From NCBI GenBank assembly GCA_029001845.1, contig JAREWP010000075.1, positions 62,001 to 126,000 on the forward strand: a stretch of 64,000 nt of DNA, in the 5' to 3' direction. This document shows, piece by piece, positions 40,688 to 61,928 of this stretch. Numbering within the stretch: the first letter of the stretch is position 1; each line of letters begins with the position of its first letter. Source of the DNA: Candidatus Magnetocorallium paracelense. GTDB taxonomy: Bacteria; Nitrospirota; Thermodesulfovibrionia; Thermodesulfovibrionales; Magnetobacteriaceae. The position numbers were made by a program, and so were the translations under genes. The notes under the pieces were generated by a model. That model ran no database searches. It was not told the origin of the DNA and saw nothing but the letters and a program-made list of their open reading frames with translations.

Positions 40688-43126
40688 TTACCTCCCGGAT
40701 TCCTTCATCAATAGGGCAGCCCTTTCAGCGGTTTTCGCGGCTTTTTCAAAGAGACCTGCTGCCTCGTAAGCAACTGCAAGGGTGTCCAGCATGGCCGGTT
40801 GTTTAAAATCGGTTAGTTTGCAGGCCCTTTCAGCGAATAGGACAGCTTCTTCAATGTATTTGATTTGGTTGTTTTTGCTGGTTGCAAGTATCCATGCAAG
40901 ATTATCCAGTATTTCCGGCAAGTCAGGTTCCAGCTTCAATGCCGCTCGATATTCCTTTATGGCGGCGTCATAGTCGCCCTTTAATTCCAAAGCCAACCCC
41001 TTGTTGCGACGTGCGCCGAAATCGCCGGGGTTAATATCTATAACCCTGGAGAAATAGAAGACAGCTTCTTCGTTCCTGTTCATGCCGGCAAGTGTGATAC
41101 CCAGGTTGTTTAAAGCTCCTGTATAATCGGGTCTGATATTTACAGCCCTGCTAAAATGCATAAGCGCTTTTTTGTGCATTCCCAGTTTACTGTACAGAGC
41201 GCCGCTGTTATTATGGGCCTCTGCATTTTTCGGATTAATATCCAAAGCCTTGCCATAGTGGTTCACAGCGTCGTCGAAATTGCCCTGTTTTTCCATAAGA
41301 GCGCCTAGATTTATATGAGCGGCTTCGCTTCCGGGGTCGATCGTTAATGCCTCTTTATAACGTAAAACCGCTTCATCGGGTTTACCCAGCATTTCAAGGA
41401 CGATCCCAAGGTTTATACAGGACTCTAAATGTTCCGGATTTAGTTCCAGGGCGCGAGTGTAAAAAATCGCTGCTCCTTTGTAATGCTGTTTTGCACCCAT
41501 TGCAGCACCCAGGTAAAAGTATACTTCAGGATCATCGGGGGCTTCTTTCCTTGCATGTTCAAAATATTCTATGGCCTCATCGATTTTTCCTGTTTTAAAA
41601 AGAGTTATTCCCATATTTAAACGAGATTCCCTGAAGTGAGGATTAAAGTGCAGCGCCTTTAGGAAAAACCCGACGGCTTTGTCGAACTTTTCCAGTTTGG
41701 AATAGGCAAGTCCCAGATTGTTCAGGGTGTCCGGGTTTTGGGGATTAAACTCCAGAGCCCTCTGGAAATAGACTATACTTTCCGTGATTTTGTCTTGAGC
41801 CATCAGGCCGGATCCTACATTATTAAGAGCTATAAAATTGTTCCTTGTTACTTTCCCTGTATGTTCGAAAATCGTTATGGTATCCTTCCATTTACCTGTC
41901 TGATTCCATGAAAGTATTGCAGAAAGAGAGAGAATCAAGCCTGCCAAAACAATAGAAATTATTGCCCCAAAGCGATTCCGTGATAACAGATCGTATGCTC
42001 CCCAGGAGATTATTATAAAAAGTCCGATTAAGGGGATATAGGTATAGTGATCCGCCATGGAGTGAATACTGATTTGTATCAAACCGATAACCGGAACAAG
42101 GGTCCCTGCATACCAGAGCCATCCCACGGCAAGGTAGGGCTTCTCTCTTAATTTCCAAAGTATGAAACCGGTTATGACAATAAAAAGCACAATCGAGCCG
42201 GCGTAGCTCTGCCATGGCAGTGAAAGGCGGGGGTGAGGGTAAAGGACGCCCAGGTTTACAGGCCAAAACATCTTTATAATATAACCTGTATATGAGACCG
42301 GTGCATTTAATAACCGTGTAGTCAAAGGCAGGCTATCAAATGAAGCGACTGCTCCTCCTCCCTTTTGCGCAATAAAAGCCGTGATGGCGAAAAGGCCCGC
42401 CAATATAAAGAATGGAATCTTTTCTTTAAACAACGAAAAAGAAACAGGATCCGTAAAAATATTTTTCAACGAAGGATAATAATCTGCAAAATCGTCCGCC
42501 CTCTCTTTCGTTTCGTTAAATCTCTTTAAAGGCCAGTAATCCAGCAGGAGCAAGGCAAAAGGCAAGGTTATAAGCATAGGTTTGGCGCTTAAACCAAGAA
42601 TAAAAACAGAGAGTGACATGATATATCTAAACCGGCCGGGCTTCTTTGTATAATAGAAATATAACAACATGGTCAGTACCCAGAAAAAAGTGCTTAACAG
42701 ATCTTTTCGCTGTGCAACCCATACTACCGGTTCAACATGGAGGGGGTGAATTGCGAACAATGCAGCCGTAAAGGCGCTGCGCCACAGAGTATTCGTAAAT
42801 GCGGAAAGAGTCCAAAACAAAAGGACTGTATTGGATATATGAATAATCAGGTTGGTTATGTGGTGGCCCGCCGGGTTCAGTCCGTAGAGTTGACAATCCA
42901 ACATATGAGAGAGCCATGTCAGAGGATGCCAAAAATTGGCGTATCCCGTTGTAAAGGCCCAGGTCACACTGCGTAACGATATCCCTTGCCTTACATTGAG
43001 ATTATCGGTGACATAAATATTATCGTCATAATTAATAAAGTCATTGTACTGAACCCGCCAAAATACAAGTAATGTAATAAGGATAAGTAAGAGGCCGATT
43101 ATAAGGGTATTCTGTCTGTTTATCAT
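40688..43126 (-). CDS. TMTC-like membrane glycosyltransferase with C-terminal TPR array
   Basis: 812 residues: about ten membrane helices in the first about 420 residues, with the GT-C-like NYDDNIYVTDN loop and HPLTWLSHMLDCQLYGLNPAGHH near the N terminus and HPLHVEPVVWVAQRKDLLS further on. A TPR array of about ten repeats follows (residues about 430-790), with LNNLGLAYSKLEKFDKA, NPHFRESRLNMG and similar 34-residue units. This is the layout of TMTC/DUF1736 proteins, O-mannosyltransferases in animals. In bacteria the role is unknown. A paralogue is at 60243. The gene lies 190 bp downstream of the PWD gene in the same direction. Confidence 0.85.
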   Translation of the reverse strand: MINRQNTLIIGLLLILITLLVFWRVQYNDFINYDDNIYVTDNLNVRQGISLRSVTWAFTTGYANFWHPLTWLSHMLDCQLYGLNPAGHHITNLIIHISNTVLLFWTLSAFTNTLWRSAFTAALFAIHPLHVEPVVWVAQRKDLLSTFFWVLTMLLYFYYTKKPGRFRYIMSLSVFILGLSAKPMLITLPFALLLLDYWPLKRFNETKERADDFADYYPSLKNIFTDPVSFSLFKEKIPFFILAGLFAITAFIAQKGGGAVASFDSLPLTTRLLNAPVSYTGYIIKMFWPVNLGVLYPHPRLSLPWQSYAGSIVLFIVITGFILWKLREKPYLAVGWLWYAGTLVPVIGLIQISIHSMADHYTYIPLIGLFIIISWGAYDLLSRNRFGAIISIVLAGLILSLSAILSWNQTGKWKDTITIFEHTGKVTRNNFIALNNVGSGLMAQDKITESIVYFQRALEFNPQNPDTLNNLGLAYSKLEKFDKAVGFFLKALHFNPHFRESRLNMGITLFKTGKIDEAIEYFEHARKEAPDDPEVYFYLGAAMGAKQHYKGAAIFYTRALELNPEHLESCINLGIVLEMLGKPDEAVLRYKEALTIDPGSEAAHINLGALMEKQGNFDDAVNHYGKALDINPKNAEAHNNSGALYSKLGMHKKALMHFSRAVNIRPDYTGALNNLGITLAGMNRNEEAVFYFSRVIDINPGDFGARRNKGLALELKGDYDAAIKEYRAALKLEPDLPEILDNLAWILATSKNNQIKYIEEAVLFAERACKLTDFKQPAMLDTLAVAYEAAGLFEKAAKTAERAALLMKESGR

Positions 43127-43315: not shown

Positions 43316-46300
43316 TTAAAGCCCCTGCTGAGGTCTGGACTGGAGAAGGTAGATATCGTCTCCTGCGATTGCGCCTTCGATATCCTGGGGAGAGCCGAAA
43401 AAGACTTCCACCTCTTTTCCGATAGCCGCCAGAGAGGCCCCTGTCCTGTTGCGGGATTCTGCGTCTACAGAGAGCGGGATATTTGAGTAGTCCGTTCTTT
43501 TATAAAGCAGCCCCCCTTTGTCAGAGGGTAAAATAGAATAGGAGTAGTTGGCAAAGGAGTGCATTGTCGTCTTTCCCGTTGATTTCAGGCATATCATTCT
43601 GTATGGTACACCCTTCGCCGAAGCAGAGGCCAGAGTCTCCCCAAGTCCGGGAGCAAGCTCTATAAAAATTTCGTCGTTGTTTTTGGTTAGGGGATTCACT
43701 GTATGCATAATAAAAGAGATATCGGGGATCACCATCCTTTGAATAAGAATCGCCATATGAGCTCTGCGATGATCTATTCCTGCTTCTCTTCTGCTGATTA
43801 CGGCCCGTCTTGTCCAAAGCGAGGCCCATACCTTGAGAATCGCCTCCTTTACCTCAGAGGGAGGGACATTGGCTATAGAATCATAGAGTCCTGCACCGGA
43901 AATATCCTCCAGGTCTTCACAATTGGAGCTGGAACGAACCATCAGCCTCTCGTTTTGGGAAAACATATCATTAATTCCTGAAATAATTTCATTATCAACA
44001 GGTAATTTTTCAATAGTCTTCTGAAGTTCGGAGATTACATTATCCAAATTGTCGCCATTTGAATTATCAACATTGGACAGTAACTTACTATATTCCTCAT
44101 TAATGACAGGTGATGAGGAGAGAGCCTCTTCCAATACGCCAAATGGAATCGTAAGAGAAGAAGGGGTCTTAAAGCCCGTTGAAGAGGATTTGGACAGCTC
44201 CTCGAGCTTCCTTGCCCCACAGGCCTTTCCGCCGCCTCCCTCTATATCCGTTTCAGCAAGTGTATACAGCCTCTTTGAAGGTGTCAGCGAAATTTCTGGA
44301 ACAATCGATGAATAGGATTTTGAGGAGATATAGGAAATATTTTTGGTATCGTTATTGTCTTTATGGTCGTCTGCCGGAGCGGATAACTTAATACTTGCGG
44401 AATCGGGTCTAACATCGAGAATCACATTTTTGCCGACAAACTCTTTAAGGCCATCGAAGTTTTCTCTATCTTCACAGACAACAAAGACAGCGCCTTCCTG
44501 CCTCGCTCTTACAGCGAGATGAGAGAGGTGCGGTATCTCATGGCCTAAGATAATCCCTGCAGTACCTCGCTTTATCTCCTCGTCGCCATCTGCAAACCTT
44601 AGAAGTAAAACAGTCCTTTCGTCAAAAGAACCTTTAATGTCTCTCAGCTTTTCGGCGAATACCAGGCGGCCCTGCGTCTTTCCCGTTACAATAGCATCCC
44701 AGGGAGGGAGCCCGGCTGCATCTCTTATACTCTTAAGCAGATGTGAAATGAGCCTGGACATCTGGAATACAAGGTTTCCCCGAATATCGCCTTCGCAATA
44801 TACATCTACTGCGTGACCGGGGACACTTAAAGATTTTCCCAGGCGCTGAGCTTTTTCAAGAAAAAGATTCAGAATATTGTTGCTGTAGTCGTCGGCAATG
44901 CGTTTACAACGTTCCACACCGGCCTTAATACGCAGCAGATCATCATGAGTTTCATGGTTAAACGATGACATCCAACGATTAAGTTCCGATTGCGTAACAA
45001 CGCTTTCTTCACGAAAAATACAAGACAGTTCGAGATTCTTCAGGGATAAAGACAGCATTTTAAGAGAATACAACCAGTATGGAGGACTTTTCGGAGTAAC
45101 TCTGCCCTTTTCCAGCTCATTGATAAAACGGCTCAAAGTAACGAATGCGAAATCTTCAAGACCGATATCGGCGGTTATTATTTTTTGCGCTTCTGCGCTT
45201 GCTCTTCCTTCGGTCTCCGATACAAAGGCGGTTCTAACATCCGTTAATATTTCGATCGCTTTTACGAGATCATCGATTTGAGCATCTTTTTTCCCTGTCC
45301 CTAACTTCGACTTAACGGTAAGGAATTCACTGATCTTTTCAGATTCTTTCACTCCTCCTTTGTCTGTCAGCGATTTAAGAATCTCCTCGCTTGAACCGGC
45401 ATTAAAAAACTCCTTTAACTCCCTGTGAAATATCTTAAACTGTTCCACAAAGGTCGATGAATAGTCAGCTCCCGGAGATGTTATACGTTTCAGAATCGTC
45501 TTGGAAGTAATCAGATCCTCAGGCCCTGCGCACCTGTGGAGTTTGTTTTGCAGGGTGTGTTTTATTTCGTTTTTCAAATCCTTGGGAATATCGTTTCTGT
45601 GGGCAATATCTCTGATCCTTGTCAAGGGTTCGGCTCTGGTGTAAGCGCTGTCATATGAGGGAAGCAGGGGATATATTTTTCTGATTATATAGGCGTTGTC
45701 CTCTGTGGTGAGCTCGATTAATCTGCCGTGAATCTCCTGAGACATCCTGGCGTGATGGCATGGTCTGAAATGCCTTCCGTCTTCGGTACAGGGTATTTCC
45801 CCTGTATTGAGAAAACGAAGATAAATGGATATATAGATCAATTGTTCCTTATCAGGGACAAAGCTGTCGTCTCCAAAGAGAGCATTGATCCAGTTCAACT
45901 TCTCTCTCCAACTCCTGTAGTGTCCGTCAGCCTCGGATATGGTGTCTACAAAGTCGTCTCCCTTTTTCGGAACAGGCATCTTACCATCGTATCTGACCGT
46001 TTTCCTTTTCGGTTTTGGAGGCGTCTGATCCTCTTTTTTGGCTTTGTCCCTTATCTCAATTTTCGAAGTTTTGCTCATATTTGGAGAATCGGCATGATGA
46101 GGCTCTCTTTTCTTTTCTTTAAGGGGCTTCTCTTTTACAAAGTGCTTAAGGCCCTTGTGATCGAACATTTTGTAAAGCCTCTCCCTGGCCTGATTCAACA
46201 GAGAAGGAGGGTCCGGCCACTGCTCCATTATTATGGCTCCTTCAAATTTTCTTTTCTTCAGCAGTTTAATAAAGCCGTATATACCGGCGTCGTTTTCCCG

Positions 46301-46960
46301 AGAGGGCCCGGTAAAAATCGTCAGGTGGCTGTCGTGATCGCCGTAGTTTTCATGGAGATGGATATGAATTACAGGAACGCCGGAATCCAGGCGTTTAATA
46401 AAACCGAGATAATCGTTTTTACTGGAATCGCAGAGATTAGCATGACCCAGATCAAGGCACATACCGACATGACTGACAGAAGCGTTGTTCATTGATCTTA
46501 TCATAGCGAAAAGTGCGTTAAAATCTTCGGGAGAGGTAATAGGGGTATTTTCGATAGAAAGCCGAATCCCGGCCTTGGCAGTTTTATCAATCAGGGGTTC
46601 GATGCTTCTTGCATAGGCTTCGATTCCCTCTTCCAAATGGAAATGTATATTTAGAAGAGTTGCGCCTATATCTTCTGCAAATTCGATCTGCCTGTCAAGA
46701 ACGCTCTCCGATTCCGGATTGAGAGGGTTGGCCTGCCACGGTGCATGCACAGTTAAACCCATATCGGCGGCAATGGATTTTTCTTTTATAATTACTCTTG
46801 TCTCGCTGTCAATATCGCTCTCTTCCCAGCCGGCGCCTGAGTCATGTTTGTCTGGAAACCACTCAAAGGCGTCAAATCCGTTGGATATGGCGTAATCGAA
46901 AGGTTCGAGAATCGACGGCGCCGAAAATGCGGTTTGGTTGCCTGTTCTTATAATCTTCAT
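43316..46960 (-). CDS. Phosphoglucan, water dikinase (PWD/GWD3)-like protein fused to an N-terminal xylose-isomerase-like TIM barrel
   Basis: 1214 residues. About 1-275 form a sugar isomerase-type TIM barrel with likely metal ligands in VHAPW, NIHFH, SIENTP, CLDLGHAN, HIHLHEN and MEQWPDP. A charged linker (about 280-340) follows. From about 350 the text tracks plant phosphoglucan, water dikinase, e.g. PLTRIRDIAHRNDIP, KNEIKHTLQNKLHR and AGPEDLI. The phosphohistidine motif is IPHLSHLAVRARQ (His814). The ATP-binding domain has MVRSSSNCEDL and PQDIEGA. PWD transfers beta-phosphate of ATP to C3 of prephosphorylated glucan. The starch-binding CBM20 of plant PWD is replaced by the barrel. The start codon touches the GWD stop (TAAATG), so translation is coupled. 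Confidence 0.86.
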   Translation of the reverse strand: MKIIRTGNQTAFSAPSILEPFDYAISNGFDAFEWFPDKHDSGAGWEESDIDSETRVIIKEKSIAADMGLTVHAPWQANPLNPESESVLDRQIEFAEDIGATLLNIHFHLEEGIEAYARSIEPLIDKTAKAGIRLSIENTPITSPEDFNALFAMIRSMNNASVSHVGMCLDLGHANLCDSSKNDYLGFIKRLDSGVPVIHIHLHENYGDHDSHLTIFTGPSRENDAGIYGFIKLLKKRKFEGAIIMEQWPDPPSLLNQARERLYKMFDHKGLKHFVKEKPLKEKKREPHHADSPNMSKTSKIEIRDKAKKEDQTPPKPKRKTVRYDGKMPVPKKGDDFVDTISEADGHYRSWREKLNWINALFGDDSFVPDKEQLIYISIYLRFLNTGEIPCTEDGRHFRPCHHARMSQEIHGRLIELTTEDNAYIIRKIYPLLPSYDSAYTRAEPLTRIRDIAHRNDIPKDLKNEIKHTLQNKLHRCAGPEDLITSKTILKRITSPGADYSSTFVEQFKIFHRELKEFFNAGSSEEILKSLTDKGGVKESEKISEFLTVKSKLGTGKKDAQIDDLVKAIEILTDVRTAFVSETEGRASAEAQKIITADIGLEDFAFVTLSRFINELEKGRVTPKSPPYWLYSLKMLSLSLKNLELSCIFREESVVTQSELNRWMSSFNHETHDDLLRIKAGVERCKRIADDYSNNILNLFLEKAQRLGKSLSVPGHAVDVYCEGDIRGNLVFQMSRLISHLLKSIRDAAGLPPWDAIVTGKTQGRLVFAEKLRDIKGSFDERTVLLLRFADGDEEIKRGTAGIILGHEIPHLSHLAVRARQEGAVFVVCEDRENFDGLKEFVGKNVILDVRPDSASIKLSAPADDHKDNNDTKNISYISSKSYSSIVPEISLTPSKRLYTLAETDIEGGGGKACGARKLEELSKSSSTGFKTPSSLTIPFGVLEEALSSSPVINEEYSKLLSNVDNSNGDNLDNVISELQKTIEKLPVDNEIISGINDMFSQNERLMVRSSSNCEDLEDISGAGLYDSIANVPPSEVKEAILKVWASLWTRRAVISRREAGIDHRRAHMAILIQRMVIPDISFIMHTVNPLTKNNDEIFIELAPGLGETLASASAKGVPYRMICLKSTGKTTMHSFANYSYSILPSDKGGLLYKRTDYSNIPLSVDAESRNRTGASLAAIGKEVEVFFGSPQDIEGAIAGDDIYLLQSRPQQGL

Positions 46961-49900
46961 TTAGACACCCACCTGCGGACGGGTCTGCACGACATAGAAC
47001 TTACCCTTTGAATAGACGCCTTCTATGTCCTGAGGACAACCAAGGAGCCCTTCGATTTCCGCGCCTATCCTTGTTATGTTTATGAGAAAATCGTTTTTAA
47101 AGATTTCATTCCATAACAGAGGCTCTTCCGTATAATCCAGCGGTTTCTCAACCGGGGGATCGGCCATAATACTGTCATAAAGACCGGCCCCGGCATACCC
47201 GGAAAGGTCTTCGCCGTTGGAATCGGATCGAAATATCAGCCCCCCTCCAAAAAGGCCGATGCTCTTATTGGGAAAGGCCAGGAGTTTTGGTTTGGGCTTG
47301 TCCTTTTTCGATACAAACCCGAGAGCCCGTCCCGGAAAATTCGCCACAAGAGCCTCGCCGAGACCGAGAACCACTTCTGCAAAGAGTTCGTTTTTGTTAC
47401 CTGAAACAGGATTTGCCGTGTGTATGACAAAGGCGTACTCTGCTTCCACGACTTCCTGAATCAACACTGCCATAAACAGATTGTCATGGGAAATCTCCAT
47501 CGCCTTTCTGCTTAAATAGGCCCCTTCGTTCCACTTTGACGCCCAAACGCTTTTTATGCACATCCATGCTTTATCCCAATCCTCTATGGGTTTCAATCTA
47601 CTCTCCTTTATTGCGGAATTCAAGGTGTCCGTTAATTCGTTGTTGTGATGCAGGGACTTCACACACTCTCTCATTTGGGAAAGTATTTCGCGTGGACTGT
47701 TATCGAGTTCTTCAAATAATCGATAATAGTTTTCTCTGATATCAAGATTTTGTTCCTCTTCAAGGACCTTTTCAAATACACCGAAGGGGAGAGCCGCAGA
47801 AGCCGGCAGATTAATCCATTCAGGGAGTTTCCCGTATAGTTTTACGAGATTGAGAGATTTACCGCCTACAACATCTTCTTTAAAAGAACCTGAAGAGAGT
47901 GCATACCCTTTAAATTCTCTTGGAATGGTCTCCTCTTTAACGGTTGCCGTTATGACAGGCTTTTCTGTCACCTCTGCCTCACCCTCTTTAAATACCACTT
48001 CGCCGGCTGCATTTACCGAAAAATTCATCACTTCACCTTCAAAGGACTTTAGTTTATCGATAATATCCGCATCGTAACAGGTGGCGAAAAGCAGCCCCAT
48101 GTTTCTCGCACGTACAGAGACATGGGAGACAATATCCGTAACATCAGGCGTAATAACAGTTGTCACAGCGGCAGGAACATCTTCATCGCCGGCTACTTTA
48201 TCTGCAATAATTACCTTCGATTCTTCATAGACCTTTCCCTGAATCGATTTTAAGGCTTCTACGACCTCTACTCTTCCGGATCCTCTGCCGGAGCTTATTA
48301 CCTGCCAATTACCAAGGTCCGCAGTTTTGCGAAGAATCGGATCCAGTCTGAACAGGAGCATGGAGAGAACGAAAGAGAGACGCCCTCTTACAACTTCTTC
48401 GGTGAAGAGTTCGATGGTCCATGCGTCGGCCTCAAAGGCCTTTCCCAAGGACTCGGCCTTTGACTGAAACAAATTGTAAAATCTGTCGATATTTTCACCC
48501 AATGTCCGTCTCAGACGATCCAATACAGACTTTACGTGCAGGGACCACTCCTTTTTAAAGCGAGACATATCCTTTAATCGTTCCCACTGTTTAAAACAGT
48601 CTGTCAGTTCTTTGTTGTCATGATCGAAACTGAGATTCTCGACAACGAGACAGATTAGTTCGACAAGTTGATTTCCGCTTAGTTTTTCATGAATATTTCG
48701 CTCCACGACAATTCGGAAAAACTCTTCCAGCGCTAAATCGAGAAAAAGAATATCCCGTACTTTTCCGGCGTCTCTGTCGGAATTCAATATCTTATTGAGC
48801 CTTCGGCGCGCTTCCGTAATCTTGACAACAAGATTGACGATCAATCTTTTGCTGTCCTTTCTGCGTTTCCAGATATAATCGAGAACTTCTGATGTTTCTT
48901 TATCGAGAAATCTGGCGGCTGTTTTTAAAGTGTTTTCCAGATCAGTGCTGGAATGAACGCCATTTAGTATTCTCAGGTAGTTTTCAAAATCATGGATCAG
49001 CCCGTCCTTTATATGGGGAACGAATTCGGGATCTGTGACGATGGGGCGATCGAAGCTTTCAAGTCTCTTTTTAGTGACACCGGCCTCTTCACAGGTCTTA
49101 TAAAAGACCTTCAGATTACCGTTGCTTCGTAAAAAGGCGAGATAGGCTTCGCAGATAACGATATCGTCAGGTGTCGTATTGTTGTGGAGCTTTTGATGCC
49201 ACTCTTCCATAAAGTGTCCGGCCACCTCTTTGATTTTGTGTCTGTGCATAATATTGAGGATTTCGTCGCGCACTTTCTGCCCTTCGCCCCCTCTTCCGAG
49301 TGTTGTATATATGAGGCGTATCAATTCGCGACTGGAAGGTTCGCTTGTAAATATCTCGGAGAGCCTGAGAGTAAGTCTGTCCTGTGCATGACTCAGCTCC
49401 CTGGGTTTGGTGTTGTATCTTCTCTGCCAGTCCAGTTGTCTTATTGCGGAAAAACGAAGCCATACGTAGATAAGGGCAAGGCCGTCCATGTCACGTCTGA
49501 CATTGTAGACCAGGTCATGGCAGAGGTTGAATCTGTGCATCAATGTCCAGGAATTTTTGGTCATTTCAGCCTGAACGACCTCTCTTGATATATTATTGAG
49601 AATATTGGAATCAAAGGATATTTCGCTTTGTCCTTCTCCTGAAAGTTCTATATAAAAATCTCCCCCCCGGTTTTTTAACCATCTCCCTGTTTCCGGCTGG
49701 AAGAGGACAAATTTAATTCCCCGCAGTTCCTCGTCTTTTACTGTCTTCAGTGTAATCATTTTCAGTTCTTCCGCCTGTATAAAGGGACTCTGCGCAGCTT
49801 TGTCCTGAAATAATGCAGTGCCATGAGGAAACATCGATTCCGGAGGCGGAAGCCACTCACGAGAAGATTTTTTGCATATCCCCCAATGGAGCAGTAAATC

Positions 49901-50440
49901 GCCGGTTATATCGGTTGTCATGACAATCCCGGCTGTTTCCTCTCCATTTTCTATACCTATTGCAAGCCTGCCTTCGTTTCCTATGGCATATTCCTGAATA
50001 TAGGACGCCTCCATGATTTTATCTATCGGATCGGTGAGCGACAGCATGGGTTTTTCCGCAACAGGAAGGTCGATAGTATAATTCCTGCCCTGGTTGTTAT
50101 CCCATCTGTTTTCGTCAGGGAAAAAGAGAACAAAGGAGAGAGCGGAAAAACCACTCTCTTCATCTATGGAAATATCTGTTTTGTACTCTGACTGCGAGCT
50201 GACAAAGGGGGTCTGTACTGCATTTTTATCGAACTCTTTTGTTCCTTCGGGGCGGAAATCAGCCGGCGGGAGTATCCATTTGTTATTGCCCCTTTTGTTC
50301 AGCCCCCAGTGCAACAGGCAGTTGGCCGGTTTTTCAAGCTTCAGGGAGAGTTCGACCATGGATTCAACGTTCCGCTTCTCTACGGATAGTGTAAAACCCT
50401 TTCTCACGTTTATCTTCTCATAAATACTCATAATACACAC
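46961..50440 (-). CDS. Alpha-glucan, water dikinase (GWD)-like protein with two CBM45-type domains
   Basis: 1159 residues in the plant GWD order. Two CBM45-like starch-binding modules are at about 1-130 and 150-270 (LLHWGLNKRGNNKWILPP...AVQTPF, and LLHWGICKKSSREWLPPP...AAQSPF). A helical middle region has RRYNTKPRELSHAQDRLT and FMEEWHQKLHNNTTPDDIVICEAYL. The phosphohistidine domain carries IVSHVSVRARN with catalytic His773. The ATP-grasp-like domain has GGKSLNLVKL, FRSDSNGEDLSGYAGAGLYDS and PQDIEG. GWD phosphorylates C6 of glucosyl units in starch, opening it for degradation. It precedes PWD directly. The start could also be Met4. Such a pair is characteristic of starch-making eukaryotes. Confidence 0.9.
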   Translation of the reverse strand: MCIMSIYEKINVRKGFTLSVEKRNVESMVELSLKLEKPANCLLHWGLNKRGNNKWILPPADFRPEGTKEFDKNAVQTPFVSSQSEYKTDISIDEESGFSALSFVLFFPDENRWDNNQGRNYTIDLPVAEKPMLSLTDPIDKIMEASYIQEYAIGNEGRLAIGIENGEETAGIVMTTDITGDLLLHWGICKKSSREWLPPPESMFPHGTALFQDKAAQSPFIQAEELKMITLKTVKDEELRGIKFVLFQPETGRWLKNRGGDFYIELSGEGQSEISFDSNILNNISREVVQAEMTKNSWTLMHRFNLCHDLVYNVRRDMDGLALIYVWLRFSAIRQLDWQRRYNTKPRELSHAQDRLTLRLSEIFTSEPSSRELIRLIYTTLGRGGEGQKVRDEILNIMHRHKIKEVAGHFMEEWHQKLHNNTTPDDIVICEAYLAFLRSNGNLKVFYKTCEEAGVTKKRLESFDRPIVTDPEFVPHIKDGLIHDFENYLRILNGVHSSTDLENTLKTAARFLDKETSEVLDYIWKRRKDSKRLIVNLVVKITEARRRLNKILNSDRDAGKVRDILFLDLALEEFFRIVVERNIHEKLSGNQLVELICLVVENLSFDHDNKELTDCFKQWERLKDMSRFKKEWSLHVKSVLDRLRRTLGENIDRFYNLFQSKAESLGKAFEADAWTIELFTEEVVRGRLSFVLSMLLFRLDPILRKTADLGNWQVISSGRGSGRVEVVEALKSIQGKVYEESKVIIADKVAGDEDVPAAVTTVITPDVTDIVSHVSVRARNMGLLFATCYDADIIDKLKSFEGEVMNFSVNAAGEVVFKEGEAEVTEKPVITATVKEETIPREFKGYALSSGSFKEDVVGGKSLNLVKLYGKLPEWINLPASAALPFGVFEKVLEEEQNLDIRENYYRLFEELDNSPREILSQMRECVKSLHHNNELTDTLNSAIKESRLKPIEDWDKAWMCIKSVWASKWNEGAYLSRKAMEISHDNLFMAVLIQEVVEAEYAFVIHTANPVSGNKNELFAEVVLGLGEALVANFPGRALGFVSKKDKPKPKLLAFPNKSIGLFGGGLIFRSDSNGEDLSGYAGAGLYDSIMADPPVEKPLDYTEEPLLWNEIFKNDFLINITRIGAEIEGLLGCPQDIEGVYSKGKFYVVQTRPQVGV

Positions 50441-50561
50441 TTACCTCTTAGATGTTTGAAATTGTAGTTGGATTGTGAAAAAAACCCGGTGACAGGACTC
50501 GGATGCTGTTTGGATTCAGGTATGTTGTTAATTATATAAAAACGCTCTTTTTTTTATCAAA

Positions 50562-60242: not shown

Positions 60243-61928
60243 TTGAAGAATCTAAAATGCATTACTTCTTCTCTTCATAAATATCGATCCCCCTTTCTTT
60301 GCCTGGCAATCCTTACAATCACGTTCCTGACTTTTTTACCGACCCTTGAACATGAATTTATTAATTATGACGACATAGCGTACGTAACACAAAACGAGAA
60401 GGTAAAACAGGGATTTTCTGTAGAAAATATCATTTGGTCTTTTACCACGATAGAAGCTTCCGGATGGTTTCCCTTTGCATGGCTTTCACATATGCTGGAC
60501 TGTCAAATCTATGGATTGGATCCAAGGGGCCATCATTTGACAAATTTGCTTTTTCATCTTGCAAATACATGGTTGCTATACTTGTTTCTATCCAAAACAA
60601 CGGACTCGGTTTTTCGAAGCGCCTTTGTCACGGCCCTGTTTGCACTACACCCTCTTCATGTCGAACCGGTTGCATGGATTGCTGCGCGTAAGGATTTAGT
60701 AAGTGCTTTTTTCTTTCTTCTTTCAATGTCAGCTTATATACACTACATTAAATCGCCTAACATCGGTAGGTATTTCCTTGTTGCTCTTTTTTTTATTATG
60801 TGCCTCCTTTCCAAGTCTTCCCTTGTTACCTTGCCTTTTTTGTTACTTTTGCTCGATTTTTGGCCTCTTTGCCGAATCCAGGCCTGTCCGTTAAATAATG
60901 GCGGGAAAGCATCTTCTATCATGACTTTGCAAGCGGATTATTATGTGCAAAGGCTTTTAGTACTGACTTTGGAGAAGGTTCCTTTACTCTTTTTTTCAGG
61001 AATGCTGACTGCCATAGCATTTATTTCTGCAAAAAATACCAGTTCCCTGATTTCAACCCAAGACTTATCTGTATTCACACGCATTTCAAACGCCCTTATG
61101 GCTTATGTCAATTATATAGAAAAAACAATCCGGCCCCATGCCCTTGCTCTTCCTTATCCATACCATCACTCTTTTTCTCTGTGGAAACTAACTTTCTCCA
61201 TTTTATTGTTATGTATCATTACCTCGTTGACAGTATATTATGTAAGGCGATCTCCTTATCTGATCGTCGGATGGTTCTGGTATATTGGAACTCTGGTACC
61301 TGTTATAGGGCTGGTTCAAAGCGGAACACACTCCATGGCGGACCGTTACACCTATATACCATTAATCGGACTCTTCATCATGATTACATGGAGAGTTTCC
61401 GATTTTTTGTCGAGTCGACGAGCAGGTCAAATCGTTCTTACAACATCGGCAACCATAGTGATATGCATTATTGTCATGTTCACCGGTTTTCAGATAAACC
61501 ACTGGTATAATTCCGTTACTTTATTTCAACATACGCTGAAAGTAACGGACAATAATTCCGTGGCCCATGCCCAGTTGGGCCATGCTTTATCGATGACGGG
61601 CAAATATGATTTAGCAATGTTTCACTACAAACAATCGTTACGTTTATTTCCAAACCAGATGATTGTCTACAATAACCTTGGTAATATCTTGGCCAAATCG
61701 GGAAAGCCCGATGAGGCCATTTCTCAATATAAAAAAGCGATAACCATCGATCCGGATTATATTAATTCTTATATTCATTTAGGAATTCTGATGCTTTCCA
61801 TGGACAAGCCCGACGATGCAATCGAAATTTTCAAAGGAGCTTTAAAAAGAAATCCCGATCATGGAAGCGCTAAAAAATATTTAGACATTGCTATGCAGTA
61901 TAATGTCTCAAAAAAAACGAGCGATTAG
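60243..61928 (+). CDS. TMTC-like membrane glycosyltransferase, short TPR array
   Basis: 561 residues, a paralogue of 40688-43126. It has the same NYDDIAYVTQN loop, FPFAWLSHMLDCQIYGLDPRGHH, HPLHVEPVAWIAARKDLVS and TGTLVPVIGLVQ, with about ten membrane helices, but only about three TPR units (residues about 430-545). The start is TTG at 60243, since no ATG lies upstream in frame near a ribosome binding site; the start is uncertain. Similar topology but fewer repeats suggests a different protein substrate or partner. Confidence 0.82.
   Translation: MKNLKCITSSLHKYRSPFLCLAILTITFLTFLPTLEHEFINYDDIAYVTQNEKVKQGFSVENIIWSFTTIEASGWFPFAWLSHMLDCQIYGLDPRGHHLTNLLFHLANTWLLYLFLSKTTDSVFRSAFVTALFALHPLHVEPVAWIAARKDLVSAFFFLLSMSAYIHYIKSPNIGRYFLVALFFIMCLLSKSSLVTLPFLLLLLDFWPLCRIQACPLNNGGKASSIMTLQADYYVQRLLVLTLEKVPLLFFSGMLTAIAFISAKNTSSLISTQDLSVFTRISNALMAYVNYIEKTIRPHALALPYPYHHSFSLWKLTFSILLLCIITSLTVYYVRRSPYLIVGWFWYIGTLVPVIGLVQSGTHSMADRYTYIPLIGLFIMITWRVSDFLSSRRAGQIVLTTSATIVICIIVMFTGFQINHWYNSVTLFQHTLKVTDNNSVAHAQLGHALSMTGKYDLAMFHYKQSLRLFPNQMIVYNNLGNILAKSGKPDEAISQYKKAITIDPDYINSYIHLGILMLSMDKPDDAIEIFKGALKRNPDHGSAKKYLDIAMQYNVSKKTSD

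Follow-up and report, generated by a model that had tools for sequence, protein, structure and literature searches.

The bacterium Candidatus Magnetocorallium paracelense carries, on the minus strand of the 64,000-nucleotide stretch of its DNA analysed here (the window), two intact long open reading frames for GWD-family dikinases, the second of which is fused to an N-terminal TIM barrel that accompanies GWD in several bacterial phyla. We reasoned that these proteins could form a bacterial cycle of alpha-glucan phosphorylation: phosphate would be added by GWD and the PWD-like dikinase and removed or remodelled by the TIM barrel. We hold the chances of this reading to be evenly balanced. Its parts differ in strength: the addition of phosphate to an alpha-glucan by the dikinases, predicted from sequence, is well supported by homology, while the phosphoesterase role and the substrate proposed for the TIM barrel are predictions drawn from its metal ligands and its genomic association.

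The first-pass annotation had described two coupled dikinase genes, and this description was confirmed; the ORFs meet in a TAAATG junction (read ...gtc TAA ATG aag...), and both the pair and its domain matches are far beyond chance. An in-frame ATG at 50431 provides an alternative start for GWD. Upstream of it, the candidate promoter is the region's best match, in a region where the total of such matches is not above chance. Two large membrane-plus-TPR proteins, alike in make-up, flank the region (window 40688-43126 and 60243-61928). The features of the locus are as follows:

50531..50560, minus strand: candidate sigma-70-type promoter TTGATA-18-TATAAT, upstream of GWD, 11/12 matches
46961..50440, minus strand: ORF of the GWD-type alpha-glucan, water dikinase, 1159 aa, GTG start at 50440
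50021..50419, minus strand: first Ig_N_CWD1 / CBM45-type module, about residues 8-140, approximate limits inferred from alignments
49643..49987, minus strand: second Ig_N_CWD1 / CBM45-type module, residues 152-266, PF23166
48320..49552, minus strand: GWD central domain with EEWHQKLHNNTTPDD, residues 297-707, homologous to the solved plant GWD 9ha9
47984..48310, minus strand: GWD phosphohistidine domain GWD1_pHisD, residues 711-819, catalytic His773
46973..47863, minus strand: ATP-binding domain of GWD, PPDK_N type, with the FRSDSNGEDL motif, about residues 860-1156
43316..46960, minus strand: ORF of the TIM-barrel / PWD-like dikinase fusion, 1214 aa, directly 3' of GWD
46157..46960, minus strand: AP_endonuc_2 (xylose-isomerase-like) TIM barrel, residues 1-268, Pfam PF01261
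45956..46156, minus strand: charged linker, about residues 269-335, variable or short among relatives
44702..45955, minus strand: central domain of the PWD-like part with RIRDIAHRNDIP and QNKLHRCAGPEDL, about residues 336-753
44372..44701, minus strand: phosphohistidine domain of the PWD-like part, residues 754-863, catalytic His814
43325..44233, minus strand: ATP-binding PPDK_N domain of the PWD-like part, residues 910-1212

The likeness of the first protein to plant GWD, noted earlier from two CBM45-type modules, the phosphohistidine motif with His773 and FRSDSNGEDL, held up in every domain (two Ig_N_CWD1 modules, CBM45-type, PF23166, 2.8e-55; GWD1_pHisD, PF22973, 4.2e-34; PPDK_N matched in three pieces). 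Residues 297-707 match the solved plant chloroplast GWD 9ha9 (E 2.6e-93), and His773 is invariant in 23/23 aligned relatives.

The second protein had been taken for PWD, and this identification stands in part. It is a GWD-family dikinase with a phosphohistidine domain (GWD1_pHisD, 2e-23) and PPDK_N (2.4e-43), His814 is kept in all eight sequences that cover the position (10 aligned), and its motifs appear to resemble those of the PWD type, which makes PWD orthology a lead; in a fragment tree built by a quick method, the PWD-like proteins split from GWD as a group of their own with full support. Plant PWD, however, has a CBM20 at its N-terminus, and CBM20 had no match in the window PWD-like protein or in the four relatives scanned; the N-terminal place in the PWD-like proteins scanned is taken by a TIM barrel (in the window AP_endonuc_2, 9.9e-25), by a separate TIM ORF or by nothing. 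The protein is thus a TIM-barrel/PWD fusion without CBM20 and not a plain PWD; its TIM barrel had escaped the first-pass annotation.

The pair had also been called very unusual for a bacterial operon, which proved not to be the case. A GTDB scan returned 138 bacterial GWD relatives (80 loci kept) in several phyla, and the pair is therefore not unique; examples come from Nitrospirota, Desulfobacterota, Planctomycetota and Verrucomicrobiota, among others, the phyla of the GWD relatives as named in the records being Nitrospirota, Desulfobacterota/Deltaproteobacteria, Planctomycetota (including Scalindua), Verrucomicrobiota, Nitrospinota, Acidobacteria and Chromatiales. A GWD tree of 2018 already takes in bacteria and led its authors to suggest lateral transfer (PMC6260743). 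Of 296 Nitrospirota genomes, 22 have a GWD phosphohistidine domain above cut-off (0/14 in well-known control genomes), and the TIM family (profile threshold E <= 1e-20) was found in 20/22 genomes with GWD vs. 0/274 without it (Fisher p = 4e-29, in a test that ignores shared ancestry). Chance co-occurrence of a common superfamily was considered and rejected: PF01261 as a whole occurs in 196/296 genomes and the TIM family in GWD genomes only. DSPc phosphatases occur in 122/296 genomes and in 8/22 of those with GWD; because of these counts for PF01261 and DSPc, we regard the GWD association as specific to the TIM family. The TIM profile detected no member in two Nitrospirota GWD genomes, G120 and G146 (loci L058, L056 and L060 between them), natural exceptions of which G146 has two GWD genes.

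In GTDB, TIM is present in 50 of the 70 GWD loci whose downstream flank spans 1.2 kb or more, almost always directly downstream and nearly always within 420 bp. Relatives of the TIM domain take one of three forms: fused to PWD, as in the window; alone right after GWD in loci that lack PWD; or as an ORF of their own between GWD and PWD. All 27/27 PWD-bearing loci carry TIM, and PWD never occurs without it. Of 30 genomes with no TIM seen at the GWD locus or on its contig, 20 proved to have one elsewhere, and such an unlinked TIM can sit in a glycogen cluster (genome G188, locus L181, with GH13, DUF4912-like, GH57 branching enzyme and GlgA genes); about 10 GTDB MAGs with GWD have no detectable TIM. 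Directly upstream of GWD, on the same strand, 10 Magnetobacteriaceae-type loci encode a probable membrane protein of 212 aa that matches no Pfam model (L137:9184-9822 and nine others).

The window genome, as covered by family searches and individual stretches, encodes a full alpha-glucan metabolism: GlgA (C36), a GT4 glycogen synthase (C17), two GlgB (C59, C64), GlgX and a MalQ-type 4-alpha-glucanotransferase (C74), TreS-maltokinase and TreZ (C46) and an hDGE-type GH13 (C59). The first-pass annotation had proposed a search for glycogen synthase and debranching enzyme, and had named the absence of all alpha-glucan metabolism as evidence against its reading; since glycogen synthase, branching and debranching enzymes are all encoded, that objection falls away. 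Elsewhere, GWD loci adjoin GH57 branching enzyme, GlgA, GH77, GT4, GH57 and hDGE-type GH13 genes. That this bacterium phosphorylates a storage alpha-glucan, as had been suggested, is favoured by dikinase homology and by its alpha-glucan genes, with the role itself predicted by homology. A crystalline glucan as substrate, and the order C6 before C3 known from plants and algae, are conjectural for this bacterium. A small GH13 (hDGE_amylase-like, ~430 aa) without an NCBIfam name is found in about 30 GWD loci, often within the GWD-TIM operon (L109:11257-12543); the one in the window genome (L187:7947-9251) adjoins GlgB. In GWD genomes, DUF4912 or DUF4912-like proteins repeatedly neighbour branching enzyme and GlgA (L104:18963-19766, L181:4436-5017, L188:7109-7663), and a glycogen-associated role for them is possible. 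A 1621-aa protein of the window genome (C16, L064:6850-11715) has PPDK_N without the GWD phosphohistidine domain.

The TIM barrel falls in the AP endonuclease 2 superfamily, which includes both the phosphodiesterase endonuclease IV and one-metal sugar epimerases. Eleven of its residues (H72, H106, E137, D170, H173, H199, H201, H203, D210, H212 and E246) are invariant in 35/35 sequences from several phyla. The metal ligands of endonuclease IV are H69, H109, E145, D179, H182, H216, D229, H231 and E261; in profile alignments to E. coli endonuclease IV Nfo (hhalign, 8.7e-6), with MJ1311 (1e-14) and M. tuberculosis endonuclease IV as further references, all nine of these positions are filled in the TIM barrel, the counterpart of H216 being one of H199, H201 and H203, ambiguous among the three. 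An AlphaFold model of the domain (pLDDT 93.2) matched MJ1311, an AP endonuclease, sugar (ketose 3-) epimerases and Thermotoga Nfo (TmNfo) in Foldseek (4.3e-12). A complete three-metal site favours phosphoester chemistry, and the genomic association points only to the phosphoester made by GWD and PWD; we therefore propose that the TIM barrel is a glucan phosphoesterase.

In the cycle that we propose, GWD would use its two CBM45-type modules to bind the storage alpha-glucan that the cell itself makes, and transfer the beta-phosphate of ATP via His773 to glucosyl units; the PWD-like half would transfer phosphate via His814, probably to another position or to already phosphorylated glucan; and the TIM half, a predicted metal-dependent phosphoesterase, would remove or remodel the glucan phosphate, taking the place held in eukaryotes by the DSP phosphatases SEX4, LSF2 and laforin. 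To our knowledge, all known glucan phosphatases are DSPs of this kind. An LSF/SEX4-like glucan phosphatase, which the first-pass annotation had suggested looking for, did not emerge in the window genome, whose DSPc match is an unrelated small membrane protein; a DSP as the partner phosphatase was accordingly rejected, DSPc being present in 8/22 GWD genomes and thus showing no association with GWD. Against the cycle stand the GWD genomes in which TIM went undetected (G120, G146 and the ~10 GTDB MAGs) and the missing CBM20 of the second protein, which makes its targeting to granules uncertain.

The fold itself speaks against a phosphoesterase, since sugar epimerases share it and make up a large part of the Foldseek matches. 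The TIM barrel of the same dikinase operon might then be a sugar or sugar-phosphate isomerase or epimerase acting on phosphorylated glucose or malto-oligosaccharide from glucan breakdown, an unlikely alternative but one to be taken seriously: Foldseek rank 1, MJ1311, is annotated as D-tagatose 3-epimerase-like, many of the top 50 matches are ketose 3-epimerases, and the Pfam name itself is xylose isomerase-like. However, our literature search found no demonstrated function for MJ1311, and the TIM barrel has H72/H106 and H173/D210/H212 at the metal 1 and metal 3 positions of endonuclease IV, ligands that one-metal epimerases of the superfamily are not known to need. We think it distinctly improbable that the TIM barrel stands in for CBM20 as a module without catalytic activity or with a structural task, which would bind glucan or dock PWD to GWD; while it occupies the N-terminal place that CBM20 has in plant PWD, and is often encoded beside GWD where there is no PWD, eleven invariant His, Asp and Glu of active-site type would be superfluous in a pure binding domain.

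A phosphodiesterase or DNA-repair nuclease of the endonuclease IV or CbiR type, with a substrate unrelated to glucan phosphate, would also account for the endonuclease IV metal ligands and for a weak match to the CbiR model (4.3e-8, far below that model's cut-off), CbiR being a phosphodiesterase member of the same superfamily (PMC7733943). The strict co-occurrence of the TIM barrel with glucan dikinases and its fusion to one of them make DNA or cobamide substrates unlikely, and we give this alternative very little credence. Least credible of all, to the point of being negligible, is that both proteins belong with the ordinary relatives of PEP synthase or pyruvate phosphate dikinase and are unlinked to glucan, the finding that had been named in advance as fatal to the GWD/PWD identification: the PPDK_N ATP-binding domain is indeed held in common, but NCBIfam PEP-synthase models match this nucleotide-binding domain only, with scores far below cut-off, there are Ig_N, central and pHis domains specific to GWD, and glycogen enzymes are neighbours across phyla, so that both proteins are GWD-family dikinases.

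A second family, here termed c2 (344 aa, no Pfam match; L079:6654-7688), follows TIM-PWD in many loci (L079, L073, L075, L087, L104 and L115 among them) and is in some of them fused to an hDGE-type GH13 (L115:16454-18799). It has its own invariant His/Asp/Glu set and a weak profile similarity to the first TIM barrel (1.3e-7), and its confident model (pLDDT 91.8) has an endonuclease IV as best Foldseek match, at a low TM-score; we read c2 as a second, divergent AP-endonuclease-2-like TIM barrel. It occurs in 6/296 Nitrospirota genomes, all PWD-bearing, and in 17 GTDB loci, each of which also carries PWD. A single-protein and profile search found no c2 in the window genome, nor was one found in genome G172, and c2 is therefore not essential to the GWD/PWD pair. 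Rather tentatively, and with somewhat less than even confidence, we propose that the TIM barrel represents a new, non-DSP, three-metal, endonuclease IV-like class of glucan phosphatase dedicated to GWD-phosphorylated glucan, to which c2 would add a further such step in most PWD-bearing lineages, so that bacteria would run a cycle of phosphorylation and dephosphorylation on phosphatases of their own.

In the fragment tree, made by the same quick method, the phyla of the bacterial GWDs are intermixed, and the single plant GWD row (one fragment) stands apart from them on a long branch whose placement is unsupported. The window GWD falls outside the supported clade of the other sampled Magnetobacteriaceae-type GWDs, a position that hints at a separate acquisition. 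According to a proposal cited in PMC6260743, GWD arose together with the primary plastid; the wide occurrence of the system in bacteria puts the origin of GWD and PWD in question again. Within the library searched, we found no report of a TIM partner of GWD/PWD. The core enzymes belong, as bacterial representatives, to a family already known; the dedicated, widely conserved TIM partner and its fusion to a PWD-like dikinase look new. Reversible phosphorylation of storage glucan has so far been treated as a trait of starch-making eukaryotes; with a widespread bacterial system that has a dedicated third enzyme, the phosphorylation of bacterial glycogen or of a starch-like glucan becomes directly testable, and the TIM barrel becomes a candidate for a new class among glucan phosphatases.

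Compared with known systems, the window GWD has the tandem CBM45/Ig-like, central, phosphohistidine and ATP-binding domains of plant GWD in identical order, with 41% identity to the solved plant fragment over 417 aligned positions, but it is bacterial and operon-coupled to a TIM-barrel enzyme. Its partner shares the phosphohistidine and ATP-binding domains, and apparently the PWD-type motifs, with plant PWD (EC 2.7.9.5), and differs from it in having a TIM barrel at the N-terminus instead of CBM20. With the DSP glucan phosphatases SEX4, LSF2 and laforin, the TIM barrel would share its proposed step, the release of glucan-bound phosphate; their fold, however, is unrelated, and DSPc does not track GWD. 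With the AP endonuclease 2 superfamily (endonuclease IV, CbiR, MJ1311 and the ketose 3-epimerases) it shares the TIM fold (Pfam, 9.9e-25), and with endonuclease IV the nine filled metal-ligand positions; unlike these relatives, it is a separate, well-defined family, fused to a dikinase and confined to GWD genomes among the Nitrospirota searched.
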